From: a virus
Virus record (IMG/VR): IMGVR_UViG_3300044730_002166
Coordinates: 1-22,220 of that record
DNA length: 22,220 nucleotides
Direction: 5' to 3' (one strand)
Shown here: positions 530-22,220 of the stretch, in pieces
How positions within the stretch are numbered: the first letter of the stretch is position 1
Layout of the letters: the number at the start of each line of letters is the position of its first letter
Translations under genes and position numbers: made by a program
Notes under the pieces: model-generated
What the model saw: only the letters and a program-made list of their open reading frames with translations
Databases searched by the model: none
Told to the model about the DNA's origin: nothing

Positions 530-559
530 GTGTAAAGGACTCTTCAGAATGGTTATACT
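530..559 (+). promoter_or_regulatory. Phage promoter copy 1 (TGTAAA-N17-TATACT)
   Basis: GTGTAAAGGA at 530-539 is followed by exactly 14 nt and TATACT at 554-559, then G. The same arrangement with the same spacing precedes the genes at 4230, 5195 and 7653 and the tRNA genes. Transcription would start near 566, leaving a leader of only about six nt before the ATG at 572. Confidence 0.72.
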
Positions 560-1794: not shown

Positions 1795-2616
1795 ATGAAC
1801 CTCGCTAAAAAGCAGACTTCTGCAGTCGCACCAAACGGTGGCACCATCAGTGCCTATCTCAACGACTTGAAGTCGTACCCACAGCTCAAGCACCCAGAAG
1901 TCGTGAGTCTTTTCCAGACTTACGAGACTGGTGGGGTCGCCGGCGAACGAGCGAGGAAGAAGCTGATCGAAAGCAACCTTCGTCTCGTCATATCCATCGC
2001 GAAGAAGCAGAAGGGCCACAACATTCCCCTCGAGGACCTCATCCAAGAGGGGAACCTCGGCCTCCTCAAGGCGATCGAGCGCTTCGATTACAAGAAGGGA
2101 TTTCGGTTCTCCACCTACGCAACGTGGTGGATCAAGCAGGCGATCTCCCAACACGTCCTGAAGCGCAAGCGCATGATCAGGCTTCCTGCACATGCGGCGG
2201 GAATTCAGCGTAAATTGATGCAAGCGTCCGAAGAGTTCAAGGAAATGATGGGATTCGATCCATCACAAGAAGACTTGATGGCGCTCGTCGATGCCTCAGA
2301 AACTGTTGTAAAAGCCACAATGGCAAGTGGAAACAGCGTAGTTTCACTCAGTCAGACAATCTCTTCCGATCCTGACTCGGGAACGCTTGAAGACAAGATT
2401 GAAGACAGCGACAGTAGAAACGATCCCTTCTACAACGTTTCTTCGCGTGAACTTATGGACATCGTAAGAAACGTTCTGTCAACTCTTACTGAAAAAGAAT
2501 CTGCAATACTACGTCTGCGGTTTGGTCTGTTTGACGAAGCCGCATTGACTGAAGAAGACTACAGTATTACAGAGGAAGAGCAGCAGCAATTGATGAAAGG
2601 TGTTCCTCTGAAATGA
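1795..2616 (+). CDS. Sigma-70-family RNA polymerase sigma factor lacking region 4.2
   Basis: This 273-residue protein should bind host RNA polymerase and direct it to phage promoters. In order it shows region 1.2 (from YLNDLKSYPQ, about residue 21), region 2.1-2.2 (ESNLRLVISIAKK, then IPLEDLIQEGNLGLLKAIERFDY), region 2.3-2.4 with RFSTYATWWIKQAI for -10 melting and recognition, region 3 (about 135-190), and region 4.1 (LSTLTEKESAILRLRFGL). After RFGL, where RpoD-type factors continue into the TLEEVG...RERIRQIE helix-turn-helix that reads the -35 box, this protein has an acidic tail and stops. No frameshifted region 4.2 is visible just downstream. The last third is more AT-rich than the first half. 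Stop and next start overlap as ATGA. A separate HTH protein two genes downstream could supply the missing function. Confidence 0.9.
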   Translation: MNLAKKQTSAVAPNGGTISAYLNDLKSYPQLKHPEVVSLFQTYETGGVAGERARKKLIESNLRLVISIAKKQKGHNIPLEDLIQEGNLGLLKAIERFDYKKGFRFSTYATWWIKQAISQHVLKRKRMIRLPAHAAGIQRKLMQASEEFKEMMGFDPSQEDLMALVDASETVVKATMASGNSVVSLSQTISSDPDSGTLEDKIEDSDSRNDPFYNVSSRELMDIVRNVLSTLTEKESAILRLRFGLFDEAALTEEDYSITEEEQQQLMKGVPLK

Positions 2617-2837
2617 CCTTCGGTCACTTCTTACTTGCATTGTGTGCTGTTGCATCAACATTATCAATGTCATTTAGTCTAATGACATTGATGGCTTGCA
2701 AAAGACTTTCAGGCGAATTAGAACGTCATGTTCGAAAAATGAATGAAAGTGGCAACTTCACAGAACAAGATTTGAATACACGACTTGATCAACTACAGAG
2801 AATGAGATTCTCACCGCTTAATTTGAGACAAAGATGA
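2613..2837 (+). CDS. Small membrane protein in the sigma operon
   Basis: This 74-residue product is not recognised. Residues about 5-29 (HFLLALCAVASTLSM onward) form one hydrophobic segment, either a membrane anchor or an uncleaved signal. It is followed by a polar, probably helical cytoplasmic part with a QDLNTRLDQLQRMR stretch. Its ATG overlaps the sigma factor stop (ATGA), and its own stop overlaps the next start in the same way, so three genes are translationally coupled. That coupling suggests work related to the sigma factor, for example tethering it, but this is inference. Confidence 0.62.
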   Translation: MTFGHFLLALCAVASTLSMSFSLMTLMACKRLSGELERHVRKMNESGNFTEQDLNTRLDQLQRMRFSPLNLRQR

Positions 2838-3103
2838 AAAAGCAAAAAAGCGCAGTGTATGCGACGGTGACGAACGACGATGGCGTCAACTATCGTGAAA
2901 TCGCGGACATGATGACGGAGATTGGTTTCAAGATGAACCATTCATCGGCGCGAAACTACGTACTTAGAGTAATGCGAAAGTTCGCAGATGCTATAATTGA
3001 CAGCTGGGGTTTAGATGTACCAGAACATAATCTCGAAAAGATTGTAAAATCTCAGAAATTTCAGCAGGCAATCAGTGAAATACTTCAAGGTATCGAAGTC
3101 TGA
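2834..3103 (+). CDS. Small helix-turn-helix protein resembling sigma region 4.2
   Basis: This 89-residue protein has a central helix-turn-helix. YREIADMM (about residues 20-27) forms the first helix, a short turn follows, and MNHSSARNYVLRVMRKFADAI (about 34-54) gives the recognition helix and its extension. The layout (x-E-I-A then Ser-Ala-Arg-Asn and a basic helix) resembles sigma region 4.2, TLEEIA...RERVRQIE...KLR, but the match is weak by eye. The remainder is helical without other domains. It is the third gene of the ATGA-coupled sigma operon, and the sigma factor there lacks region 4.2. It may be a detached -35-reading domain; otherwise it is an independent small transcription regulator. 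Confidence 0.6.
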   Translation: MKKQKSAVYATVTNDDGVNYREIADMMTEIGFKMNHSSARNYVLRVMRKFADAIIDSWGLDVPEHNLEKIVKSQKFQQAISEILQGIEV

Positions 3104-4192: not shown

Positions 4193-4222
4193 GTGTAAAC
4201 TGAATCAAAATTAGGATACGGT
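4193..4222 (+). promoter_or_regulatory. Phage promoter copy 3 (TGTAAA-N17-TACGGT)
   Basis: GTGTAAACTG at 4193-4202 is followed by 14 nt and TACGGT at 4217-4222. The -10 box keeps only the key T, A and final T, but the -35 box and spacing match the strong copies. Seven nt separate it from the ATG at 4230, predicting a leaderless message. Confidence 0.55.
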
Positions 4223-4229
4223 TGTAATC

Positions 4230-4427
4230 ATGATGAAGCATATCACGTTTCTTTTGGTCACGGCCGTATCCGTTCAAGTTTCTGCAGGTACAGCATCCTG
4301 CGGTTTCATCAACGATCATGACGAGAGAATGATGTGCATGGCGTCTTCCACGAGGAACTCTTCGTACTGTTCCTTCATCAAGAAGGAAGACTTGCGGATC
4401 CGGTGCTTCGCATCTCTGGGGAAGTGA
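4230..4427 (+). CDS. Secreted 65-residue protein with duplicated Cys motif
   Basis: The first 19-20 residues are a typical Sec signal peptide (basic start, FLLVTAVSV core, VSAG cleavage region). The mature part of about 45 residues contains two copies of C-x-F-I-x(3)-D-x-R-x(2)-C-x-A-S. The first runs from Cys24 to Ser39 and the second from Cys47 to Ser62, with each Cys pair spaced by 12. The four Cys probably form two disulfides in the periplasm or outside the cell. Function unknown; no enzyme motif. The ATG lies seven nt after the -10 box of a phage promoter, so the message is probably leaderless, and there is no Shine-Dalgarno sequence. A second in-frame ATG follows immediately at 4233. 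Confidence 0.7.
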   Translation: MMKHITFLLVTAVSVQVSAGTASCGFINDHDERMMCMASSTRNSSYCSFIKKEDLRIRCFASLGK

Positions 4428-5157: not shown

Positions 5158-5187
5158 GTGCAAAGTTCAACACTGAGAGTGTATACT
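5158..5187 (+). promoter_or_regulatory. Phage promoter copy 4 (TGCAAA-N17-TATACT), ligase
   Basis: GTGCAAAGTT at 5158-5167, 14 nt, TATACT at 5182-5187. The 10-base upstream box is identical to the copy at 7617. Seven nt separate the -10 box from the ligase ATG, so the predicted start of transcription falls on or one base before the A of ATG. Confidence 0.8.
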
Positions 5188-5194
5188 GAAGACC

Positions 5195-6532
5195 ATGGAA
5201 TCCGTCATCGACATCCTCGAAGCCCTGGAATCTGACAACTCCCGCCTCTTCAAGGAGGAAGTCCTCCGCAAGAGTCGTAGCAACGATCTCCTCAAGCGTG
5301 TGTTCGTTGCAGCAGGCGATCCCTACACCAACTTCTTCGTGAACAAGTTCAAGATGCCTCCCCCGTGTGGGGTCGGAGACGACGATGAAATCCTTGAAAA
5401 CTTCCTCGATGAGATCTACGAGAATCTCTCCACTCGTGCGGTGACCGGCAATGCCGCCAAGGACCTCGTGGTCCGCCTCTTCACCGACATGACCGGTCCG
5501 CAGCAGAAGTGGAGCCTCCGCATCCTCCTTCGCAATCTTCGAGTCGGTGCATCGGAGTCCCTAGTGGAGAAGACTTGGCCCGGTGCGATCGCCAAGTTCT
5601 CCGTTCAGCTCGCGGAATCCCTCGAGTCACACCACGAGACGGGCAAGGGCATCGTGATCGCAGAACCCGTCGAATATCCGGTCCGTGTGGAACCCAAACT
5701 CGACGGTCTCCGATGCATCGCCATCAAGAAGGACGGCGTGGTCACCATGTTCACCCGCAGTGGTTCTCCCATCGAGACTCTTCCTACTATTAAGGCTGCC
5801 CTCGAGGCCGCCTCGTGGGACAACTTCGTTCTCGACGGCGAGGCGATGGGCCGCGACTGGAATGAGTCCGCATCGGTGGTCATGTCCCACAAGACCGCGA
5901 AGGACGATTCCGGCATGGTGTACAACGTGTTCGATGCGATGGTCTTCGATGATTGGAAGGATCAGGCAAACGATGCCGATCTCCTCTCCCGTGTCGATCT
6001 CGTCAAGGAACTCGTGGAAGAGGTCGGTTCTGACCACGTGGTCCACGTTGGTGGCATCACTGCGAAGGACCAGGATCAACTCCTCAAGTTCTACGGCAAG
6101 TGCATCGAGAGCGGTTACGAGGGCATCATGGTGAAGAAACTCGCCTCCCCGTACATCTTCAAGCGCTCCGATTCCGTTCTCAAGCTGAAGCCGGTCACCA
6201 CGTACGAAGGCGTGATCGTGGGTCACTACGAGGGCAATCGTGGTTCCAAGCGCGAAGGCCTGTGGGGCGGTTTCCAGGTGGTGATGCCCAACGGTGTGGT
6301 CACGAAGGTGGGCGGTGGTTACAACGACAAGATTCGTGCGGAGATTTCCATCGATCCTGACTCGTGGATTGGTAAGATTATTGAGATCGAGGGTCAACCT
6401 GACCCCCTCACGGCGGATGGCCTCACCGCCGATGGCCGCATCAGATTTCCTGTGTTTGTTAGGGTTCGTGATTCCCGTGATGTGGATCCCAAGGTGATCG
6501 CGGCGGGGGAGGCGTACCGTGCCTCGAACTGA
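5195..6532 (+). CDS. ATP-dependent DNA ligase
   Basis: This 445-residue ligase seals nicks in phage DNA using ATP, for replication and repair. The N-terminal 150 residues are an alpha-helical DNA-binding domain. The adenylated Lys is K168 in EPKLDGLR (motif I, KxDG). Other motifs are FVLDGEAMG (211-219, III), MVYNVFDAMVFD (241-252, IIIa), GYEGIMVKK (307-315, IV) and LKLKP (329-333, V). An OB-fold follows (about 336-425), with RFPVFVRVRDSR near the end. The length fits family members with an N-terminal extension rather than the shorter T7 enzyme. The PLTADGL-TADGR stretch near residue 405 contains a small tandem duplication. The message is predicted to be leaderless; no Shine-Dalgarno sequence precedes the ATG. 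The next gene overlaps its 3' end by 14 nt. Confidence 0.96.
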   Translation: MESVIDILEALESDNSRLFKEEVLRKSRSNDLLKRVFVAAGDPYTNFFVNKFKMPPPCGVGDDDEILENFLDEIYENLSTRAVTGNAAKDLVVRLFTDMTGPQQKWSLRILLRNLRVGASESLVEKTWPGAIAKFSVQLAESLESHHETGKGIVIAEPVEYPVRVEPKLDGLRCIAIKKDGVVTMFTRSGSPIETLPTIKAALEAASWDNFVLDGEAMGRDWNESASVVMSHKTAKDDSGMVYNVFDAMVFDDWKDQANDADLLSRVDLVKELVEEVGSDHVVHVGGITAKDQDQLLKFYGKCIESGYEGIMVKKLASPYIFKRSDSVLKLKPVTTYEGVIVGHYEGNRGSKREGLWGGFQVVMPNGVVTKVGGGYNDKIRAEISIDPDSWIGKIIEIEGQPDPLTADGLTADGRIRFPVFVRVRDSRDVDPKVIAAGEAYRASN

Positions 6533-6776
6533 GGATGATTTCAAAGATTCTGGGCATCTCCATCGGCTCCTCATGAAGCCCGAGAACGAACCTGCGAGGC
6601 GGGCATATGCTCGGGTGTACAGGGCCCTGATGGCTTGTGAATCCGCTCTCGATCGCATCAGCAGGCGGGATGTGTACGGTTCCCTGCAGGAAGAGATCGA
6701 TGAGATGCGGAGGATGGCCCGTGAGGGGCAGGAGCTCGCGCGGGAAGCACAGATGTTACAAGAGGAGAAGGATTGA
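6519..6776 (+). CDS. Hypothetical coiled-coil protein
   Basis: This 85-residue product has no recognised family. The GTG at 6519 has a strong purine-rich site (GGGGGAGG) six nt upstream, which supports this start over the ATG at 6573. The second half, from about residue 45, is a long charged helix rich in Glu, Arg and Met with heptad-like spacing (EEIDEMRRMAREGQELAREAQM), so oligomerisation is likely. There is no signal peptide. It overlaps the ligase by 14 nt and abuts the FGE-fold gene, placing the three in one operon. Confidence 0.65.
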   Translation: MPRTEDDFKDSGHLHRLLMKPENEPARRAYARVYRALMACESALDRISRRDVYGSLQEEIDEMRRMAREGQELAREAQMLQEEKD

Positions 6777-7582
6777 TGATGTTGAAGAATTTTCTCGTGT
6801 TCTCTACTTTCCTGTGCCTCGGTGGTATGGTTTTCGCCGCGGGTTCCGAACCTGATTATCAGGCGCTGAGGGCGAAGAGTTGCCCCGAGGGCACCGTGCG
6901 GGTGAAAGGTAATGCACTTCCTGCAGGATCAGACATGATTGAGATCCTCCAGGATGCCACCTGCGATGAGTGGATCTCCACCCAGTTCCCCGCCAGGTGT
7001 GCCAGATTTAATCGAGAGAAATGGGCCAAGGTTACTGACGGTCTAAAAAACAAACGCCATCAGATGGACTTCTGCATGGACACGTATGAATTCCCGAACG
7101 AGGTGGGTGCCACGCCCGTGGTGTTCATCGATTGGTACTCCGCGAAGAAGACTTGCGAACACGCCGGGAAGCGCCTGTGCACCGAGGAGGAGTGGACCTT
7201 CGCATGCGAAGGCGAGGAAGGTCTTCCGTATCCGTACGGATACGATCGCGATGCGAACACATGCAACATCGATCACAAGTGGGTCAATCCGGATGTTGAG
7301 GCACTTCAGAACCCTTCAAAGCGAGGCGAGGAACTACTGCGATTGTGGCAAGGAGTTCCCAGTGGATCCATGGAAAAGTGTGTGAGTCCGTTCGGTGTCC
7401 ACGACATGACAGGCAACGTTGACGAGTGGACGAGTTCCACGAGGAAGTCTGGGTATCGGTCGATCCTGAAGGGCGGATACTGGTCCGTGGTTCGCACTCG
7501 GTGCAGGCCTTCCACGAGGATCCACAATGAATCTTTCGCGTTCTACCAGCAAGGTTTCCGTTGTTGCACGGATGTCAGGTAG
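6776..7582 (+). CDS. Secreted FGE-sulfatase-fold protein
   Basis: The start is ATG 6776 (GAGGAG eight nt upstream; its A is the last base of the preceding stop). A signal peptide covers residues 1-22 (NFLVFSTFLCLGG, then AA). The remainder has the hallmarks of the formylglycine-generating-enzyme fold: FIDWYSAKKTCEHAGKRLCTEEEW, then PYPYG, SPFGVHDMTGNVDEW, ILKGGYW, and a final QGFRCC. True FGE oxidises a sulfatase Cys and uses a pair of copper-binding Cys; by my recollection of that motif only the second is present here (RTRC, with Val at the -5 position). I therefore infer a binding or structural role. The fold is C-type-lectin-like and is often used for ligand recognition. Many Cys suggest a periplasmic or extracellular location. 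Confidence 0.85.
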   Translation: MMLKNFLVFSTFLCLGGMVFAAGSEPDYQALRAKSCPEGTVRVKGNALPAGSDMIEILQDATCDEWISTQFPARCARFNREKWAKVTDGLKNKRHQMDFCMDTYEFPNEVGATPVVFIDWYSAKKTCEHAGKRLCTEEEWTFACEGEEGLPYPYGYDRDANTCNIDHKWVNPDVEALQNPSKRGEELLRLWQGVPSGSMEKCVSPFGVHDMTGNVDEWTSSTRKSGYRSILKGGYWSVVRTRCRPSTRIHNESFAFYQQGFRCCTDVR

Positions 7583-7616
7583 TTGGAATTCTCCTGAATA
7601 TTCTGTCGTCATTTGG

Positions 7617-7646
7617 GTGCAAAGTTTCGCCTCACCGGAGTATAGT
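7617..7646 (+). promoter_or_regulatory. Phage promoter copy 5 (TGCAAA-N17-TATAGT), HExxH/VWA gene
   Basis: GTGCAAAGTT at 7617-7626, 14 nt, TATAGT at 7641-7646. Six nt then lead to ATG 7653, placing the expected start of transcription on the A of the start codon. The promoter sits inside a frame that is open further upstream, which argues against any start before 7653. Confidence 0.8.
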
Positions 7647-7652
7647 GTTTCT

Positions 7653-8996
7653 ATGATCGAACAAACCGAAAACGAGACCGTCACGGACTTCAACCTTGAC
7701 CGGCACCTGATCAGCTTCCTGCAGGACTCTCCGTTCTTTGCGGAACTGAGCCGCCACATCCACAAGGTCCCCACGAAGTCCCTCCCGACCGCGGCCGTGG
7801 CGTTCAATGAGAAGACCGACGAGATCACGCTCCTCTGGAACCCTGACTTCTTCTCGAAGTTGTCCCAGTGGGAGGTCCGAGGCGTTCTCACCCACGAGTA
7901 CTACCACCTCGTGTTCGGTCACCTCTACGGCCGTCGGCGCACTCCTCCGCATCTGTGGAACATCGCGACGGACTGTGCGATCAACTCCATCATCATGGAC
8001 ACGGCGAAGCACGGCAACGGTGGGCGGCTCAACGGAGATCGTCCTCTTCCCGAGTTCTGCATCATCCCCGGCAAGTTTCCGAAGCACCCGGAGGGCCGTG
8101 AATACACGAAGGACGAGCAGCAGGCCATGAAGCTCGCGAAGGTGATCGAGAAGCTTCCGCCGATGAAGGCTTCTGAATGGTACTTTGAGAAGATCAAGGA
8201 GGAGTCCGACAAGGACAAGGAGGCCGGTGGTGAAGGCTTTGACGGCGAAGGTGACGGTGAAGAGTACGTGATCGGCTCCATGGACGATCACGGCAAGTGG
8301 CAGGAACTTCCTGAGGAACAGCGGGAGTACGTCCAAGGTAAGGTGAAGGCAATGGTCGAGAAGGCCACGAAGCATGCCGACTCTCAGGCTAATGGCTGGG
8401 GTAATATTCCTGTCGATCTTGTGGATCAAATTCGAAAGTCGGTGAGCAACGTCATCAACTGGCGAAACGTTCTTCGTCAGTTCGTAGGCACAATCACTCG
8501 TGGTGGACGTTCCACTTCGATCAAGCGTATCAATCCTCGCTATCCCTACATCCATCCGGGCGTGAAGCGTGGTTATCAGGCGAAACTCCTCATCGCGATC
8601 GACCAGTCGGGCTCCGTGTCCAACGAGATGCTCGGTGAGTTCTTCTCCGAACTTGGCTCGCTCACGAAGAAGGTCACGATCGACATCCTGCCTTTCGACA
8701 CCGAGGCGTACGAGAAGGACATCTACACGTGGCGCCGCGGCGCCAATCTTCCCGCGAAGCGCGTGCGCGGCGGAGGTACTGACTTCAATGCTCCGACTAA
8801 GTTTGCCAACAATCCCAAGAATCGTGGACGGTGGGATGGTCTCCTCATCATGACCGACGGCGAGTGCAGCGCTCCGGCCCCCAGCCGAATCAAACGCGGA
8901 TACGTCATCGGCAAGGGACACAAACTTTACTTCGACACGACCGACCTCGTCATCAAGATGGACGACGTCACTTCCATGGAAGGAGCGTGGAGATGA
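7653..8996 (+). CDS. HExxH metallopeptidase-like protein with C-terminal VWA domain (DUF2201 type)
   Basis: This protein has 447 residues from ATG 7653, chosen because the promoter ends at 7646 and because the codons upstream (to 7527) encode nothing family-like. The N-terminal domain carries HEYYH (81-85) in VLTHEYYHLVFGH, a zinc-metallopeptidase motif. An acidic Gly-rich linker lies at about 185-210. The C-terminal von Willebrand A domain has the MIDAS residues: DQSGS at 317-321, GGGTDF around 374-378, and MTDGE at 400-404. Proteins of this pairing usually work with MoxR-type AAA+ ATPases in complex assembly or remodelling; no such ATPase is in this window. Proteolysis is not proven for the family. 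It overlaps the glycosyltransferase start by four nt (ATGA). Confidence 0.85.
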   Translation: MIEQTENETVTDFNLDRHLISFLQDSPFFAELSRHIHKVPTKSLPTAAVAFNEKTDEITLLWNPDFFSKLSQWEVRGVLTHEYYHLVFGHLYGRRRTPPHLWNIATDCAINSIIMDTAKHGNGGRLNGDRPLPEFCIIPGKFPKHPEGREYTKDEQQAMKLAKVIEKLPPMKASEWYFEKIKEESDKDKEAGGEGFDGEGDGEEYVIGSMDDHGKWQELPEEQREYVQGKVKAMVEKATKHADSQANGWGNIPVDLVDQIRKSVSNVINWRNVLRQFVGTITRGGRSTSIKRINPRYPYIHPGVKRGYQAKLLIAIDQSGSVSNEMLGEFFSELGSLTKKVTIDILPFDTEAYEKDIYTWRRGANLPAKRVRGGGTDFNAPTKFANNPKNRGRWDGLLIMTDGECSAPAPSRIKRGYVIGKGHKLYFDTTDLVIKMDDVTSMEGAWR

Positions 8997-9699: not shown

Positions 9700-12600
9700 T
9701 CAGTTTGTTGAATAAGAGACGGAAACCATGAACTCTTGGTCTACTTCAACAAATTGAGAGAGAGTAAGTCCATTTGAAAATCCCTGTCCTGCATCATATC
9801 TGTCAATGTAGATTCTTGAAGTTCCGGAATCTGCATATGCAATAACAGGGTTGTTCCAGTCAACTGCGGCATCTGGTTGGTTTATGTAGAGAGCGACTGC
9901 CGACATCGAGCTTGGTCTTTCTCCTGATGCTGTACCAAGATCTATGTAGAGCCTACCTGTTCCTGTGGAAGTCACAGTCTCTACTTGAAGATATCCGCTG
10001 ATTGTCACCATTCTTCCGATTCTTGTAAACTTTAACGTCCGAGACGCTACGTACAGTGAACAGCTAAGATTATTATTTTGGCTTTTAAGTGTAACTACTA
10101 GGTCCTTTTCATAATAAGCATCCAGCGTTTGCGCATCTGCGTTAGTGGGCGAATCCGAGAGTCTAACACCGTAACCGGCCGTGTCAACCTTAATGTTTCC
10201 GCTATTGACATGAAGTTTTTCTGAGGGATCATTCGTTCCTATTCCAACATAGCCCGTGCTGTATTCACATAGAAGAGCTACGTTGCTCGATCCTTGCTCT
10301 ATGAGAGAAATATTTGATGTAGAGGCTGCCCTGCTGAACTTCCACAGAGGATTTGCCCCACCATTCGTCCAAGAATACCCGCATTCACCTGTCGAAGACG
10401 CTTCTACGTTGACGTAGTTGTTTGTTCCTGTGCTTCCTTTTGAACCAACGTCAAGCATGACTGCAGCTCTTGGGTTTGTTGTTCCGATTCCAACTCTTGC
10501 ACCATGTGTGGAAGATCCAGATACCCAGAGAACCGTGCTGTTATCATACCCAGTAACTTGGAGGACTGGTTTTGCATTTGCGGGTGCTGTAGTGCCACCA
10601 CGAATGATTGTTGCTGTCTCTCCATCAGTTCCAAAAACGTGAAGCTTAGCCGACGCCGCGCTGGTTCCGACGCCAACATTTCCTGACGTATCAATTCGCA
10701 TCTTTTCAGAATCATTCACCAGAAGTGAGTACGGATGGTTAGTGGAAGTTCCACTGTAGCCGACACCTGAAAGACAGTAGCCTACGCGTTGACCTACTGT
10801 CCCATTCGTTGCCTCTATCTGCACTCCAGAAGCAGATTCCACGAAAAGTTTTGTCGTAGGTGATGTGTTTCCTATTCCAACGTTTCCGTCAGCAGTCTTT
10901 ATTGACACCGCAGTTGAGAGGGGAGATCCTGTGCTTCCGTACTTGAAATGAAGCTTTCCGGCACTTCTATCGTACTCTATAGAAGTTACACCTTCTGCAT
11001 TGATGTTCGAACCCATGTAGAGCGAAGAGACTGCACTCGAAATATTTGCACCGACTCTGTCTTGTCCTCCGTTGTGTACTGACAAACGATCAGCAGGTGA
11101 TGTTGTTCCTATTCCTACACTTCCTGTAGCATAGACTTGACCGTTTGTCGAAGAAGTCCAATAAGTGGGACTTGATCCGCCACCACCAGCAGCCAATTCT
11201 GACAATGTAAGACCGCCTGAATTGTTGATGTCGAAGAACTTCATGTCGCTTCCTGACTTCTGTATCCTCATGCCGCTCGATCCAAACTGCACATCGTTCG
11301 ATGTTAAGAGCACCGATCCAGTTCCAACAGAAAGTGATCCGCTAATCCTCACGTCGCCGCCGAAGACGACCTTGTCGGCTCCCGTGTTGTCTGTCGTCCT
11401 CGATCCACTCACCCACATGAACACGTCTGTTCCGACCGTATTTGTGCCTGCGCTAGATGATACCCACATCACTTCGGTTCCGTTAGCTTTTTGAGCGCTC
11501 AAGACCGGCTTGTTTATGATCTCTGGGTCGAGTCTTGCCACGAAACTGCCCGAAACTTCTACGCTTCCAGATGAGTAAAGCTTAAGCCTTTCAGCAATGC
11601 TTGGTGTTCCTGCCGAAGGCGTGGGATTTGTTATTCCAAAGAAGGTGTAGTGACCCTCAGCGTTCGACGGCCACGCGTGTGTTATCCTAAAAGTAGGCTC
11701 AGAATAATTTCCGGCGATGAAAGTCTGACGAAGTCCTGTTCCCTGTCCGCCGTTATTGTTTCTAACTCTAACAGCCTCATTTATACTGTTTGCTCCCGCA
11801 ATTATGTCAAGAGCAAATGAAGGATTAACATTAATTCCTATTCTTCCCGTGTCAGTGCTGTTTGATTTTATGTAAACGTAGGATCCACCGGCTGAATCTT
11901 CAAACCAATGTTCCTTCTTCATGTATTTGGCAATGTCAGAGTTGAAATTTCGAACAAAGCTGTCACCAAGGACTGTCGTACCACCTGACCATTGTGCTAA
12001 ATAACCGTCAGTTCCCGAACCTGTTGGCCCTGACCCACCTGATGCCTCAATCGTCACCGCCCCATTGGATCCGGTGGAAATCGTTATGTTTGTTCCTGCC
12101 CTGAGATAGGAAGTTCCATCTGTTAATTTCGTGAGTGATCCACTGAGTCCGCTTCCGCTCACGAAGACGATGGAGTTGCCTGCATAGTCCTGTATGTCGA
12201 GTAGAGGACCTGTCGGTGAGGGAACTCCGGCCTTGACGACGAGCGTTCCGTTAGTTAAGGTCGAGGATCCCGTGACGAGCAGACGTGTTGTGTTCGCAGT
12301 TAATCCAGGTAGTTCTCCGCCGAGGATGACATTTCCATTGCTGTCAATGACAAACCTCTTTGACGTTCCATCTCCACCGAAGAAAGTGTGCTGCAGAGAC
12401 GTGTACGTGTTTGTGGCAACTCCAAAAACATTTGGAGCGCCAATTTGCATTCCGTGCGATGAACCTGCATATGTCCCAGATACATGGAAAAGAGCAGAGG
12501 GTCTATTGGTTCCAACACCCACTCTTCCCCCAATTGTTCCAAGTGTTCCCGTCACGAAGAAGATTGAAGTACCTGAAGAATTTTGAACTTCAAAAAGTCC

Positions 12601-13245
12601 AGCATTGCTTGTCGGTGATGCCACACCTCCCTTGACAATCATCGCTGGAGTTGAAGACGTAGAAGAGCCGGAAACGAAGAGGCGCGAAGTGTAAGAATTT
12701 GTTCCTATTCCGACGTTGGTACCGTCGTCGAGGATGGTGCTATTGCCAATCGTGCTCGTGCCCGTGAATTTTGCAACATATCCTGAAGTGCCACTTCCAC
12801 CAACACCTCCGCCGCCGCCTGAGAACTCCGTCCACGTCAGAGACGTGGTATCGACAGTTATGGCACCAGTAGTCGACATGATATAGATCTTGCCACCGTT
12901 TGTCGATCCTTCTTCGACGTAAGTTGCAGCACCGCAACTGAGAGTCTCGGAATTTGCGTCCAACGACCTCGCGAGAGAATACGAGGAGTTAGTTATTGTG
13001 CAAACGTATATGCCGTTTTGGGATCCTGAACTCTGACTATTGAGGAGCACTCTATTGCCACTCTCAATCGTGATCCCGTCGACAGACAATGGCGTACTGC
13101 CAGTGAGTGGAACGTTTCCGGTTGAAGCTGCTCTGACAGAATTCTTCCAGTCCAGAGAATCGTCAACGATGTACTGGACTTCCATCCTGGGTTGGACTCT
13201 GTAGTACGAGTAAGTCTTGGTAAATCTCTGCGCGTCTCTTGACAT
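9700..13245 (-). CDS. Tail fibre protein 1 with VGIGT-type repeats
   Basis: This 1181-residue virion protein probably contacts the host surface. After a short N-terminus, residues about 32-135 form a common phage-fibre module (VRAASTGNVPLTG, then NGIYVCTI, YVEEGSTNGG, ITVDTTSLTW). A Gly-rich hinge follows. The shaft contains eight or nine copies of a V-G-[IV]-G-T-x(2)-P-x(3)-L-x-V unit, for example NVGIGTNSYTSRLFV and YVGIGTNDPSEKLHV, alternating with Ser/Thr/Gly-rich beta stretches. The last 110 residues are a different tip or chaperone-like domain (RIGRMVTISGYLQV). GAAGAAC and AGGAAG precede the ATG. Its 3' end lies two bases from the convergent glycosyltransferase. It shares a shaft module with tail fibre 2. 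Confidence 0.92.
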   Translation of the reverse strand: MSRDAQRFTKTYSYYRVQPRMEVQYIVDDSLDWKNSVRAASTGNVPLTGSTPLSVDGITIESGNRVLLNSQSSGSQNGIYVCTITNSSYSLARSLDANSETLSCGAATYVEEGSTNGGKIYIMSTTGAITVDTTSLTWTEFSGGGGGVGGSGTSGYVAKFTGTSTIGNSTILDDGTNVGIGTNSYTSRLFVSGSSTSSTPAMIVKGGVASPTSNAGLFEVQNSSGTSIFFVTGTLGTIGGRVGVGTNRPSALFHVSGTYAGSSHGMQIGAPNVFGVATNTYTSLQHTFFGGDGTSKRFVIDSNGNVILGGELPGLTANTTRLLVTGSSTLTNGTLVVKAGVPSPTGPLLDIQDYAGNSIVFVSGSGLSGSLTKLTDGTSYLRAGTNITISTGSNGAVTIEASGGSGPTGSGTDGYLAQWSGGTTVLGDSFVRNFNSDIAKYMKKEHWFEDSAGGSYVYIKSNSTDTGRIGINVNPSFALDIIAGANSINEAVRVRNNNGGQGTGLRQTFIAGNYSEPTFRITHAWPSNAEGHYTFFGITNPTPSAGTPSIAERLKLYSSGSVEVSGSFVARLDPEIINKPVLSAQKANGTEVMWVSSSAGTNTVGTDVFMWVSGSRTTDNTGADKVVFGGDVRISGSLSVGTGSVLLTSNDVQFGSSGMRIQKSGSDMKFFDINNSGGLTLSELAAGGGGSSPTYWTSSTNGQVYATGSVGIGTTSPADRLSVHNGGQDRVGANISSAVSSLYMGSNINAEGVTSIEYDRSAGKLHFKYGSTGSPLSTAVSIKTADGNVGIGNTSPTTKLFVESASGVQIEATNGTVGQRVGYCLSGVGYSGTSTNHPYSLLVNDSEKMRIDTSGNVGVGTSAASAKLHVFGTDGETATIIRGGTTAPANAKPVLQVTGYDNSTVLWVSGSSTHGARVGIGTTNPRAAVMLDVGSKGSTGTNNYVNVEASSTGECGYSWTNGGANPLWKFSRAASTSNISLIEQGSSNVALLCEYSTGYVGIGTNDPSEKLHVNSGNIKVDTAGYGVRLSDSPTNADAQTLDAYYEKDLVVTLKSQNNNLSCSLYVASRTLKFTRIGRMVTISGYLQVETVTSTGTGRLYIDLGTASGERPSSMSAVALYINQPDAAVDWNNPVIAYADSGTSRIYIDRYDAGQGFSNGLTLSQFVEVDQEFMVSVSYSTN

Positions 13246-13714: not shown

Positions 13715-13752
13715 AGGAGGAGTGGATTCGTCATCCACACGGGCCTCAGATG
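13715..13752 (+). promoter_or_regulatory. Structured ribosome binding site of the NADAR gene
   Basis: AGGAGG at 13715-13720 is 29 nt from the ATG at 13750, too far for normal initiation. A perfect six-base-pair hairpin (GTGGAT, five-base loop, ATCCAC, 13722-13738) lies between them. Folding it out would leave about 12 nt, reminiscent of the T4 gene 38 site. A perfect palindrome CCTAATTAGG (13708-13717) overlaps the AGGAGG. No other Shine-Dalgarno sequence is near the ATG. Confidence 0.4.
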
Positions 13753-14196
13753 ACAGACAGAAAAATAATCGATTCATTCACCTTGGCATCTGGATACGCA
13801 TTTCTGTCCAATTTCCATCCTTCAACCATATGGGTGGGAGGCAAGAGCTATCCTACAATCGAGCATGCGTACCAGGCACACAAGACTCTCAATGAGGACT
13901 CCCGAGAGTTGATACGTAACGCGAAGGATCCCTCGATCGCCAAGAAACTGGGGAGGGGTGTGGAGATGCGCCCCGATTGGGATTCGGTGAAGGAGGGGTT
14001 GATGCGGGACTTCATACGCAAGAAGTTCGAGTCCCCTTTCCTCGCCGATCAACTCCTCAAGACGGGTGATTGCGAACTCGTGTTCGGAAACACGTGGAAC
14101 GATCGCGTGTGGGGAGTGTGCAGAGGAACGGGTGCGAACCTCCTAGGAAAGATCCTCATGGAGGTCCGTCAGGAGTTGAAGAACTCCTCGAGTTGA
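13750..14196 (+). CDS. NADAR-family (YbiA-like) N-glycosidase
   Basis: This 148-residue protein is a full-length NADAR domain. Motifs in order are FLSNFHPSTI (18-27), YPTIEHAYQAHK (about 34-45), AKKLGRGVEMRPDW (64-77), MRDFIRKKF (85-93), LLKTGDCELVFGNTWNDRVWG (about 103-123) and NLLGKILMEVR. Characterised relatives hydrolyse N-glycosidic bonds, either in riboflavin intermediates (YbiA type) or in ADP-ribosylated guanine, undoing DarT-type DNA modification. In a phage the second activity would be a counter-defence; this is inference. It follows the lipoprotein gene after a 75-nt leader with an unusual ribosome site. Its 3' end overlaps the convergent patatin gene by 28 nt. Confidence 0.88.
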   Translation: MTDRKIIDSFTLASGYAFLSNFHPSTIWVGGKSYPTIEHAYQAHKTLNEDSRELIRNAKDPSIAKKLGRGVEMRPDWDSVKEGLMRDFIRKKFESPFLADQLLKTGDCELVFGNTWNDRVWGVCRGTGANLLGKILMEVRQELKNSSS

Positions 14197-15227
14197 TCGT
14201 GCATCTTCGCGGCGTCCTCGTAGCCTGCCTTCAACAGGAGTTGGATGTAGGGTTGGAAGATGAGGATGAACGAGAGTGAGGTTATCCATCCAGATGGGAT
14301 GATTCCCCAGAGGATGTCATCCTTCGCCTGAAGTGCAAGTGAGTCCAGGGAAATCGAAGGCCTCGCGAGGAGGAGATTGATTCTCCTGTACTTTCCGTAC
14401 GAATCAACACCCATCGAGTCGAGGAAGTCGTTGATCGTGTCGGCCTTCGCGACGTCCTGTGTGATGTGGTTGACTGTGAGGGACTCGAACATCCTCGAGG
14501 TCTGTGTGAGGATCGTGGGCTCGCTCGTCCACTCATGCTTCGTCTCTGGTTCAGGCAGCGTGAGGACGAGGATCTTAACCTCGGGATCAGAGGCCGTTCT
14601 ATAGTTCCTGTCGTTGTACATCGACATGATCGCCGGGAGTATCGGTGTGTTGTTGCACAGGCCGCCATCGATGTGCCACCCTTCCTCGAGCTGTACGGAC
14701 CTGAATGCGATTGGAATTGCACCTGAAGCCGTAGCGTGTTCCGCTCCAAGCTCCCTTTTTCTCACAGTCCAGTTCGCAGACTCGTAGTCTCTCTCGACCT
14801 TGGAGTCCACCCAGATGTACGCCTTCTTCTCAGAGAGTTCGGTGGTTGTCACGATGTTGGTCTCCACCACACCCGTGTCGATGTTTCGCCTGTAACCCTC
14901 GTTGTCGAGTGTCGTCTTCAGGAAGTCCATGAGCGGAGAGTTGTCCATGAGGGAGTAGAACTTGAAGGAGAAGATGTCGCCCCACGGGACCTTCGCCACC
15001 TGGCCGAACGTGACCTTGTTCCAGGGTTCCACGATCTTCTCTGGCAAATCTGGTGATCCTGCCGCTGCCACGTAGGACATGCCGTTCAGAGCCCCCGCCG
15101 AGGAACCGCACACTGTGGCGAACTTGTGCCCCCACTTCTCCGCCACGTACTTGAGGAATCCCGCCTCCCAGGCGCCCTTGACGCCTCCACCCGAAAGTAC
15201 CAATGCGAACTTCTTGTTGTCTTTCAT
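14169..15227 (-). CDS. Patatin-like phospholipase
   Basis: This 352-residue enzyme should hydrolyse acyl esters of membrane phospholipids. The oxyanion hole is LSGGGVKGAWEAG (11-23). The nucleophile is Ser43 in the lipase elbow GSSAG (41-45), and the catalytic Asp is D187 in DGG, so the Ser-Asp dyad is intact. The family's QLEEGWHIDGGLCNNTP segment is well conserved. There is no signal peptide. A C-terminal hydrophobic stretch (WITSLSFILIFQPYIQLLL) could bind membrane. AGGAG lies eight nt before the ATG at 15227. It is the only gene of its unit, divergent from pth2 and overlapping the NADAR gene tail to tail. Roles could include membrane damage at lysis or lipid remodelling; neither is shown. 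Confidence 0.9.
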   Translation of the reverse strand: MKDNKKFALVLSGGGVKGAWEAGFLKYVAEKWGHKFATVCGSSAGALNGMSYVAAAGSPDLPEKIVEPWNKVTFGQVAKVPWGDIFSFKFYSLMDNSPLMDFLKTTLDNEGYRRNIDTGVVETNIVTTTELSEKKAYIWVDSKVERDYESANWTVRKRELGAEHATASGAIPIAFRSVQLEEGWHIDGGLCNNTPILPAIMSMYNDRNYRTASDPEVKILVLTLPEPETKHEWTSEPTILTQTSRMFESLTVNHITQDVAKADTINDFLDSMGVDSYGKYRRINLLLARPSISLDSLALQAKDDILWGIIPSGWITSLSFILIFQPYIQLLLKAGYEDAAKMHDQLEEFFNS

Positions 15228-16759: not shown

Positions 16760-17371
16760 ATGATTAGATTCCTTGGGAAACTTCCAAAAAAGTGCATTGT
16801 TGCCTTTTCCGGGGGCGTGGATTCCGTAGCTGTTACAGACTTTCTTGTAAATGGTGGAAAAGAAATTGATCTGGCTTTCTTTCACCACGGAACTGCTGCG
16901 TCTGAAGAAGCGGAGATCTTCGTGCGGGAGTTTTCCAAGCTTAGAAAACTACATTTGAACGTTAAGAGAATTGACAAGCTTGTCCCTCCTCGAGGAATCT
17001 CTCAAGAAGAACACTGGCGGAATTGTCGTTATGAATTTCTCGAAAGCTTCACTCTCCCAGTCGTTACGTGTCATCATCTTGACGACGCTGTTGAAACTTG
17101 GATTTTCTCTTCTCTCCATGGTGAATCGAAGCTAATCCCTTACTCTCGAAGAAACATCATTAGACCATTCCTAATTTCAGAGAAGAAAGATCTTATTTCC
17201 TGGGCAAATAAGCGATCTTTGAGATGGCAGGAAGACATTTCGAATACAGACCTGAAGTACACAAGAAATTTGATTCGACACGCTATCGTTCCTCAGGCAT
17301 TAAAAGTGAACCCAGGACTTAGAAAAGTCCTCAAGAAGAAGTATTTGAATTCGATTCTCGGTGTACAATAA
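16760..17371 (+). CDS. tilS: Short TilS-like tRNA(Ile)-lysidine synthase
   Basis: This 203-residue protein is a PP-loop ATPase of the TilS type, which attaches lysine to C34 of tRNA-Ile(CAU). Motifs are SGGVDS (17-22) for ATP, then CHHLDDAVETWIFSSLHG (104-121), RPFLISEKKDLISWA (135-149) and WQEDISNTDLKYTRNLIRHAIVP (156-178), each in the TilS order. It lacks the Cys motifs of TtcA-type thiolases. Bacterial TilS usually has C-terminal tRNA-binding domains (E. coli about 430 residues); this one ends after the catalytic domain, with no stray remainder downstream. It may be active with fewer contacts or on a single phage tRNA. It lies just past the endonuclease, with only a weak GAAAG before its ATG. 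Confidence 0.88.
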   Translation: MIRFLGKLPKKCIVAFSGGVDSVAVTDFLVNGGKEIDLAFFHHGTAASEEAEIFVREFSKLRKLHLNVKRIDKLVPPRGISQEEHWRNCRYEFLESFTLPVVTCHHLDDAVETWIFSSLHGESKLIPYSRRNIIRPFLISEKKDLISWANKRSLRWQEDISNTDLKYTRNLIRHAIVPQALKVNPGLRKVLKKKYLNSILGVQ

Positions 17372-19864: not shown

Positions 19865-22220
19865 TTAGGCAACTCTGTAAGTTATTGTGAGGTAGATCTC
19901 AGCGTTAGCAGGCACATCTGCGTAAGAAATGACAGATGAAGATGTACCTACACCCGTCTGACCATACATGCGAATCTGCGTCTCAGTATCTGCAACATAG
20001 CCCGACATTGAATAGTAAGAATTTGTAAATGATATCCATCTTCCTACGGCAGCAGCACCGACGCCTGTCGAAGCATAAGGCAATCCCGTGATAACGAAGT
20101 TACCTGTTGCGGGCGTGCCGGCTCTTGCTGTTTGTTTGGCATAACAAGTCGCAATACATAGTTTTCCAACTCTGACATAATAAGCTTTCTGGTTTGTTGT
20201 ATCCATGGTACCTGCATTTCCACCGCTTGCTCCGGTGAAGACAGGATTCCAAGTTCCATAATCATATTGGTCTATAGTGCTACTTGTTCGTGTTCCATTC
20301 GTTGGTCCTGATTGACCAATCCATCCTATGCCATATGTTGCGTTGAACGCGGCAATACCATTATAGATGTGAAACCTTGTATTGGTGATCGTCGTGTCTG
20401 GGGTTGTGGTTCCAATACCAACGCTTCCGTTCGTGTTATCCCACCAGAAGTTGTTGCTGCCGCTGAGAACTCCGCCTGTTCCGGCCACAACCACTTGTCC
20501 CGCAGAAACATTGCTTCCTGTAAGAGAACCAGAAATACTGGTGGCATAGACATTATTCCATCTCTTCGAAGAGGAACCGAGGCTGTATAGGTTGTCTGTT
20601 CCCGGAAGGAGAGAACCCGTGACGGACATCGACCCATTGACAGCGAGTTTATCACCCATGGCATTCGTGCCGATGCCGACGTTGCCGCTCGTGTCAATTC
20701 TCATCCTCTCTGTCGCAGCAACGCTGAGAGCCAGCACGGTTCCGCTCGTGTTGGTTCCGATGGTCGCGAGAGATGACCCAAGAGAAACCGCGAACGAGTT
20801 TGTCTTACCTTGATCGGCAACTAGAATTCCTCTACCTGAAGAGTCTGCTATGAAAGTCGCAGCCATTCCTGTGTTGCTGTTAGGAGCGACGACAAAGAGA
20901 CGAGTGACACCTGTATCGATACCGGTGACAGAGGGCGTGGTTGAACCAATCCCAGCATTCTGTGAAGTATCGATTGTTAAAGCTGTAACATTTGCTGTTC
21001 TAATTCCAAGCGTGTGACTGGTAACTGTTCCAATGAGGCCGCCGCCTGAAAACGCGTAATTCAGCAGCTCAACATTATTCGTAGCATCTCGAATCGCCAG
21101 GTTTGTTGTCCCAAGAGCCGTGACGTAAGCAGTGGCGCTGACTGTCGGTGTATCATTTCCTGCTCCCACATGGAGGAGTGCAAGCGGAGCATTTGTTCCA
21201 ATTCCCACCCGCGTGTTCGTGTTATCCCACCAGAAGTTGTTGTTGCCGCTGAGGACACCGCCTGTTCCTGCTACGACCACTTGACCTGCAGAGACGTTGC
21301 TACTTGTCAGAGACCCCGATATATTTGTGACTTTTAAGAGATTCGTCGCCTTAGTGAACGTGAAGTCTGCATCTCCTCCGAACGATCCACCGTCATTAAA
21401 CTGAACATGCGTGTCAGAACCGCCAGGTGTTGCCGAGCTCGCGAGAAAGTTAGTTGCAACTCCGGCACCCAAAGAAGTTACGTCCCAATAACCTCCTCTG
21501 TTCGTTCCGCCTGTCTCAAATATTCTAACTCTGTTCTGGTGGACGTCGATGGACACACCAGTGTTCAATGACGTATTCGTGACAGACTTGCTGAGAAATA
21601 TCTCTCCACCCTCATCGCCTGATGAATTTAGAGACTTAAGCGTTCCGCTTGCAACAATGTCAACGGCAGACGTGATTTGACCTGTGAATCGTGTTCCGCT
21701 GACTGTTGCAACTACTGAATCGTTAATTCCGAGAGTGACTGTTGAGTTGGCACCGCCATCTGTCAAGGAAAGGCCTGTTCCTGCTGTCAATGACCTTTCC
21801 GCTGTGAGCGAAGAGTCATTTCCTATCGTAACGAACGCTGATGTCGAGGGCGCAAGATTAGGCGCTGAAATTGTGACGGCTCCGGAAGATCCCGTAAAGA
21901 TGGTGACGTTTGATCCTGCAATGAGATAAGAGGACCCATCATTAAGTCTTGTGAGAGACCCTGACAAACTGTTAGCATATACATTCGCCCATCTGTTTCC
22001 GCTTGATCCCAGGTCATAGAGCCCTGTGACTCCGGGCAAGATAGAACCTGTGACTGCAGTCGTTCCGCTGAGAAATAAGGAGTTTAGAGCTCCTCCTGCA
22101 GCTGGGAAGTCTGATATCTTGAGCAGAGAGCCCGAGACACCGACGAACTGTACAGATCCTTCGCTGAGGACCTCTAATCGCAGTGTATTACCTGCAGACC
22201 CGCTAAACTGTATGTTTGGG
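19865..22220 (-). CDS. Tail fibre protein 2, 5' end outside window
   Basis: The frame is open to the right edge, giving 784 or so codons here; the N-terminus is missing. The TTG at 22039 is not the start, since the frame reads through with fibre-like sequence (LNSLFLSGTTAVTGSILPG). The shaft has V-G-I-G-T-type units (RVGIGTNAP, NVGIGTNAMGDKLAV, SVGIGTTTP) and two copies of a VSAGQVVVAGTGG-xLSG-NNFWWDNTN block. The last 140 residues are a tip or chaperone-like domain with YDYGTWNPVFTG and KAYYVRVGKLCIATCYA. It heads a five-gene unit with two small paralogues. It probably binds the host surface. Confidence 0.9.
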   Translation of the reverse strand, partial: PNIQFSGSAGNTLRLEVLSEGSVQFVGVSGSLLKISDFPAAGGALNSLFLSGTTAVTGSILPGVTGLYDLGSSGNRWANVYANSLSGSLTRLNDGSSYLIAGSNVTIFTGSSGAVTISAPNLAPSTSAFVTIGNDSSLTAERSLTAGTGLSLTDGGANSTVTLGINDSVVATVSGTRFTGQITSAVDIVASGTLKSLNSSGDEGGEIFLSKSVTNTSLNTGVSIDVHQNRVRIFETGGTNRGGYWDVTSLGAGVATNFLASSATPGGSDTHVQFNDGGSFGGDADFTFTKATNLLKVTNISGSLTSSNVSAGQVVVAGTGGVLSGNNNFWWDNTNTRVGIGTNAPLALLHVGAGNDTPTVSATAYVTALGTTNLAIRDATNNVELLNYAFSGGGLIGTVTSHTLGIRTANVTALTIDTSQNAGIGSTTPSVTGIDTGVTRLFVVAPNSNTGMAATFIADSSGRGILVADQGKTNSFAVSLGSSLATIGTNTSGTVLALSVAATERMRIDTSGNVGIGTNAMGDKLAVNGSMSVTGSLLPGTDNLYSLGSSSKRWNNVYATSISGSLTGSNVSAGQVVVAGTGGVLSGSNNFWWDNTNGSVGIGTTTPDTTITNTRFHIYNGIAAFNATYGIGWIGQSGPTNGTRTSSTIDQYDYGTWNPVFTGASGGNAGTMDTTNQKAYYVRVGKLCIATCYAKQTARAGTPATGNFVITGLPYASTGVGAAAVGRWISFTNSYYSMSGYVADTETQIRMYGQTGVGTSSSVISYADVPANAEIYLTITYRVA
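20429..20543. repeat. Internal fibre duplication, copy 1
   Basis: A 115-nt block is repeated in the same orientation at 21215-21329 without gaps. By hand count the copies differ at about 18 positions (about 84% identity). It encodes the NVSAGQVVVAGTGG...NNFWWDNTN shaft block. High nucleotide identity suggests a recent duplication or gene conversion. Confidence 0.85.
21215..21329. repeat. Internal fibre duplication, copy 2
   Basis: This is the second copy of the 115-nt block at 20429-20543, in the same reading frame, about 790 nt away. The first 28 nt are identical between the copies. Confidence 0.85.

Follow-up and report, generated by a model that had tools for sequence, protein, structure and literature searches.

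The window analyzed here is the whole of a 22,220-base virus record, IMGVR_UViG_3300044730_002166, whose features are collected in Table 1. Near its left end lies a gene for a truncated sigma factor, followed by genes for a small protein and for an HTH protein. Both junctions are ATGA overlaps (2613-2616 and 2834-2837), so that the ATGA-coupled operon with an 89-residue protein described in the initial annotation is confirmed. The next gene of the module is referred to below as gene X.

Table 1. Features of the window, in order of position
Feature	Position	Strand	Basis or remarks
Predicted promoter GTGTAAA-N17-TATACT	530..559	+	12 nt before ATG at 572; 11.8 bits
Truncated group-1-like sigma factor, regions 1.2-4.1, without 4.2, 273 aa	1795..2616	+	Pfam, PDB profile, AlphaFold
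Small intervening protein, 74 aa	2613..2837	+	Hydrophobic N-terminal segment; C-terminal LNxRLxxLQxxRFS
HTH protein, 89 aa, proposed -35-reading subunit	2834-3103	+	AlphaFold model, conservation
Gene X, 120 aa	3127..3489	+	Next gene of the module; conserved in clades A, B and the L219 branch
Predicted promoter GTGTAAA-N17-TACGGT	4193..4222	+	ATG at 4230, 7 nt after -10; 15.5 bits
Predicted promoter GTGCAAA-N17-TATACT	5158..5187	+	DNA ligase ATG at 5195, 7 nt after -10; 22.3 bits
Formylglycine-enzyme-like gene	6773-7582		Pfam
Predicted promoter GTGCAAA-N17-TATAGT	7617..7646	+	ATG at 7653, 6 nt after -10; 27.9 bits
Long protein with GTG/SGS-rich repeats	9700-13245	-	Probable tail fibre or adhesin paralog
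NADAR gene	13750-14196		Pfam
Patatin gene	14169-15227	-	Pfam
PP-loop (TilS-like) gene	16760-17371		Pfam
Long protein with GTG/SGS-rich repeats	19865-22039	-	Probable tail fibre or adhesin paralog

Profile searches of the PDB match the sigma factor to RpoD/SigA, with E-values of about 1e-59. Pfam recognizes region 2, which holds the -10 reading residues (Sigma70_r2, E 1.2e-22), and region 3 (Sigma70_r3, E 7.9e-6, above its cut-off). In region 4 (Sigma70_r4), only positions 1-18 of 50 are matched, and the chain stops about 25-30 amino acids beyond this partial match. The AlphaFold model aligns with most E. coli sigma70 holoenzyme chains to about residue 566-569, and residue ~568 of sigma70 is the end of region 4.1. 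No region 4.2 HTH was found in the sigma factor's own chain, either by Pfam or by alignment of the model. The earlier reading that regions 1.2 to 4.1 are kept and 4.2 is missing thus stands. In all members of the clade described below, the sigma factor terminates past region 4.1, and the tail that follows 4.1 is conserved (Y-x-I-T-E-E-E...G-x-P-L); the C-terminal ends of the relatives retrieved showed no fused sigma-HTH form.

The AlphaFold model of the HTH protein consists of a helix (20-29), a turn, a long helix (36-58) and two further helices, with mean pLDDT values over 90 for each ten-residue block between residues 21 and 80. The HTH helix carries MNHSSARNYVLR, the core NYREIADMMTEIGFKMNHSSARNYVLRVMRKF is nearly invariant within clade A, and an N-terminal GYATV segment is also conserved. 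The initial annotation had called this HTH region 4.2-like: the model supports the HTH fold, and the homology to region 4.2 is suggestive only. Some clade-B HTH proteins have Sigma70_r4_2 as their best Pfam family, with E-values down to 1.9e-4, under the curated cut-off, and an hhalign comparison of the HTH profile with RpoD region 4 was not significant. When the PDB is searched with the sequence of the HTH core, the best match is the StbA HTH (E 0.0047 over 29 positions), and region 4 of SigR/sigmaE ranks behind it (E 0.58-1.2). No strong match to the model was found with Foldseek and VIA-align; against the C-terminal domain of DosR, it gives a Z-score of 3.9 and an rmsd of 2.7 with 47 aligned residues. 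On these sequence and fold comparisons, the HTH protein may or may not descend from region 4.2. Two T4 proteins were also considered as counterparts and rejected: the HTH profile has no match to gp33, and its comparison with T4 DsbA, likewise of 89 amino acids (phrog_639), was not significant.

The small protein encoded between the sigma factor and the HTH protein is present in most clade-A loci and absent from clade B. It exceeds the Kyte-Doolittle membrane threshold in 34 of 40 aligned members, and a role as membrane tether or regulator is possible. Its short C-terminal motif (Table 1) is conserved in clade A. Gene X ends in a basic low-complexity tail. No match to known families was found for it, and identity with T4 gp33 or DsbA was rejected, as HMM comparison detected no relation to either.

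The nearest relatives of the sigma factor come from uncultivated viral contigs reaching 369 kb in length. A T4-type gp23 capsid gene is present in several of the group's large genomes, which makes a large tailed phage with ties to the T4 superfamily the most likely identity of the window's virus. The HTH protein gave no tblastn match in 50,697 phage records, and no relative was found on a scan of genome contigs; hence no cultured member of the HTH family is available. Those matches of the sigma factor in phage records that were inspected are full-length or cellular RpoD-like proteins and were rejected as members of the family.

We gathered loci by scans with both the sigma factor and the HTH protein, and every ORF of the fetched loci was profile-searched. 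This yielded 153 distinct sigma factors: 103 are truncated with an HTH gene downstream, 15 are truncated without it, and 35 are full-length without it. The two-part sigma factor put forward in the initial annotation predicted a conserved pairing and no partner beside sigma factors with an intact region 4.2. Both predictions are supported: the HTH gene lies just downstream on the same strand in 103 of 103 truncated sigma factors of clades A, B and L219, and beside none of the 35 full-length ones. Starting from the other partner, the HTH query found 148 relatives, and a truncated sigma factor is present in all 80 of the loci fetched. In clade B, sister to clade A, the two genes abut or overlap. 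With 103 pairs and no exception in the clade, chance is excluded as an explanation for the sigma split and the sigma-HTH pairing.

In the sigma tree, all HTH-bearing sigma factors fall on a single branch (support 100/99), and the truncated sigma factors that lack an HTH gene, all of them outside the HTH clade, group on the other side with full-length ones. This placement points to probably two or more losses of region 4.2, one of them with a replacement and one without. Some of the truncated sigma factors without an HTH partner (among L347, L350-L371, L222, L253 and L265), mostly of 228-232 amino acids, end exactly at region 4.1, and they give no -35 signal where tested.

HTH-bearing phages share a bipartite promoter, GTGnAAA-N17-(TGn)TAnnnT, with N16 in the sister clade. 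It emerged from a k-mer and spacing search run without a preset -35 motif: among 6-mers ahead of TATANT in the clade-A loci, GTGCAA is the most enriched, at a distance of 18 nt (GTGCAAA-N17-TATANT; 17 seen against 0.27 expected). GTGYAAA occurs 19 times in clade A (0.72 Mb) and once in control loci with full-length sigma factors (0.51 Mb), while the counts for TTGACA-N17-TATANT in the same sets are one and four. Individual clade-A genomes show a sharp GTG[ACT]AA peak 18 nt upstream of TAnnnT, with 44 occurrences in G001, where other spacings average 1.3, and likewise 41 against 2.0 in G004, 32 against 0.6 in G010 and 27 against 1.1 in G013. In clade B, the peak lies one base pair closer, at 17 nt (9 against 0.8 in G016, 7 against 0.75 in G018), and clade-B genome G032 has TGTAAC-N16-TATANT (31 against 0.16 expected). 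The GTG[ACT]AA signal is weak in three HTH-bearing genomes (G008, G015 and G019), and the full-length-sigma phage G023 has TTGAC[AT] instead. The atypical -35 box of the earlier reading is therefore borne out, and is statistically strong.

With the start codon added, the pattern GTGHAA-N17/18-TAnnnT-N6/7-ATG has 528 matches and occurs in all 32 clade-A records tested; the reversed pattern gives 2. The joint pattern of box, spacer, -10 box and ATG is found 0 times in four truncated-sigma records without the HTH gene and twice in three full-length-sigma records; those same four truncated-sigma records show no -35 peak at these spacings. As a two-part sigma factor would predict, the box stands at sigma-4 spacing in phages with the partner and is lacking in the tested truncated-sigma phages without it. 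Sigma factors lacking both region 4.2 and the neighbouring gene had been named as a case against the proposal, and 15 distinct ones exist; since they lie outside the HTH clade and the four tested give no -35 signal, they fit a two-part sigma factor and do not refute it. Because the HTH-bearing phages form one clade, the link between partner and -35 box rests on few independent events.

At 113 of 145 clade-A sites, the ATG lies 6-7 nt past the -10 box. Transcription normally starts at this distance, so most such clade-A mRNAs should be leaderless, and we predict from these positions that leaderless mRNAs largely prevail genome-wide in clade-A phages. In the window, a weight matrix finds four promoters above 10 bits (Table 1), against 0.17 expected in shuffled sequence. 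The highest-scoring one marks the start of a metallopeptidase/VWA-domain gene, whose ATG is 126 bp inside the listed ORF (7527-8996); judging from the promoter position, this gene probably starts at 7653 and not at 7527. No GTGnAAA promoter was found directly upstream of the window's sigma operon, and some relatives have one about 330-400 bp upstream of theirs. In L015 and related contigs (G013, G004, G011 and G040), the spacers of many promoters carry GTGCAAAGTTCAACCTCGAAAGG-TATACT, a conserved pattern that includes a small TTC...GAA inverted repeat.

A sigma factor without region 4.2 is expected to be unable to read a -35 box. Because the sigma factor lacks 4.2 and the box accompanies the HTH gene, the most economical explanation is a takeover of -35 reading by the HTH protein. 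Most likely, then, the HTH protein would give -35 recognition to the truncated sigma factor as a separate, region 4.2-like subunit, and we have good confidence that the two may form a two-subunit phage sigma factor with a phage-specific -35 box. The truncated sigma factor would bind the host RNA polymerase, and its region 2 and the adjacent region would read the -10 or extended -10 element (TGnTAnnnT). Having retained region 4.1 and lost the DNA-reading 4.2, it would be complemented by the HTH protein in place of 4.2. Positioned on the upstream DNA, where region 4.1, the tail of the sigma factor and the tip of the beta flap would probably be its contacts, the HTH protein would recognize GTGnAA(A), separated from the -10 box by 17 bp in clade A and 16 bp in clade B. 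The two proteins would recruit the host polymerase to promoters of the phage; those of clade A mostly abut the start codon. We infer all three of the properties on which this scheme turns, namely that the HTH protein reads the box, contacts the sigma factor and polymerase, and is needed in initiation. The conserved sigma tail and the GYATV segment of the HTH protein are candidate contact surfaces. We also lean, with somewhat less assurance, towards a broader reading: that in a large uncultivated lineage including jumbo phages, -35 reading has moved to an obligate separate subunit, a detached region 4.2, giving a two-part holoenzyme with a GTGnAA box and largely leaderless transcripts genome-wide.

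The most serious alternative is that the HTH protein is a class II activator that binds GTGnAAA and touches polymerase, the sigma factor reading only the -10 element and working alone at a basal level. The HTH core is equally close to generic HTHs (StbA, GerE/DosR) and to region 4.2, truncated sigma factors without an HTH gene do occur, and phage sigma factors that read only a -10 element are known (phiEco32 gp36, PMC8948821; T4 gp55, PMC7892883). We nevertheless hold this to be unlikely: a pairing without exception, the adjacency or overlap of the genes in clade B, a fixed 16/17-bp spacing equal to that of region 4.2, and a single box at the many phage promoters found all agree better with an obligate subunit than with a gene-specific activator.

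A second alternative assigns the -35 role to gene X, which alone or with the HTH protein would read the box or bridge the beta flap like gp33, the HTH protein being otherwise employed. Gene X is present in 210 of 233 HTH loci, some of the remaining loci being incomplete, and like the HTH gene it is absent from the clade-C and full-length-sigma sequence tested. Its association with the HTH gene is therefore nearly as tight as that of the sigma factor, and co-occurrence alone cannot single out the HTH protein. But the HTH protein is the clear DNA-binding candidate, whereas gene X shows neither a known family nor a detectable tie to gp33 or DsbA, and we regard a gene X reader as quite improbable, although gene X may take some part in the task. 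That the HTH protein is instead an anti-sigma factor or an autoregulator of the sigma operon, GTGnAAA being read by another factor such as a host sigma factor of unusual -35 preference, is hardly credible: small HTH genes beside sigma genes may be regulators, and the membrane-like intervening protein resembles the integral membrane regulator of SigO-RsoA (reference 46 of PMC10141391), but phages that have no HTH gene also lack the box, its occurrence across genomes with a GC content of 0.37-0.62 makes it hardly a single host's preference, and a regulator role leaves bipartite promoter reading without 4.2 unexplained.

We return to the two-subunit sigma factor, our preferred reading. In the literature searched (open-licence papers only), no description of a sigma factor without 4.2 together with an HTH protein was found. 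Few systems are known that divide the reading of -10 and -35 between two proteins; SigO-RsoA is the clear cellular example and T4 gp55/gp33 a phage one. In this Bacillus subtilis pair (YvrI-YvrHa), sigma4 resides in SigO and sigma2 in RsoA, so that two proteins with divided sigma2 and sigma4 functions form one working sigma factor (PMC8103513). The phage pair may work like such a two-subunit sigma factor; it differs in being phage-borne and RpoD-like, and in keeping regions 1.2-4.1 in one protein while replacing only 4.2.

Phages offer further parallels. T4 gp55 and gp33 (with gp45) also combine a phage specificity factor with a small partner that sits on the beta flap, close to upstream DNA; gp33 holds the beta flap, is structurally unrelated to region 4, does not bind DNA alone and works with the sliding clamp (PMC7892883). 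A search for gp33 homologs (phrog_254) was positive for T4, and none was found in 16 other records tested. The sigma factor of phage 7-11 (gp47), which has region 4, uses a bipartite promoter; in the related phage phiEco32, the promoter used by gp36 has a single element, and gp36 shows no homology to region 4 (PMC8948821). The presence of region 4 is thus tied to a -35 element there as well, although these are single proteins in which absence of region 4 goes with absence of a -35 box; unlike phiEco32, the present phages have a -35 box plus a second gene. Finally, the 'group 2' jumbo phages are also of gp23 type with sigma factors of their own, minimal or RpoD-like, and a gp33 ortholog; the accessible part of that source describes no loss of 4.2 alone with an obligate HTH neighbour (PMC7824862). 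The arrangement found here is new and widespread, and its cut point is unlike those of SigO-RsoA and T4 gp55/gp33.

If our reading is true, these phages hold a widespread and deeply conserved solution in which -35 specificity is a separate part, and the old question of whether region 4.2 needs to be covalently joined to the sigma factor becomes testable. The promoter signature could be used to find transcription units in uncultivated phages, and the pair would constitute a compact orthogonal promoter system for laboratory use.

Elsewhere in the window, the two long reverse-strand proteins (Table 1) carry similar GTG/SGS-rich repeats, and they are probably tail fibre or adhesin paralogs.
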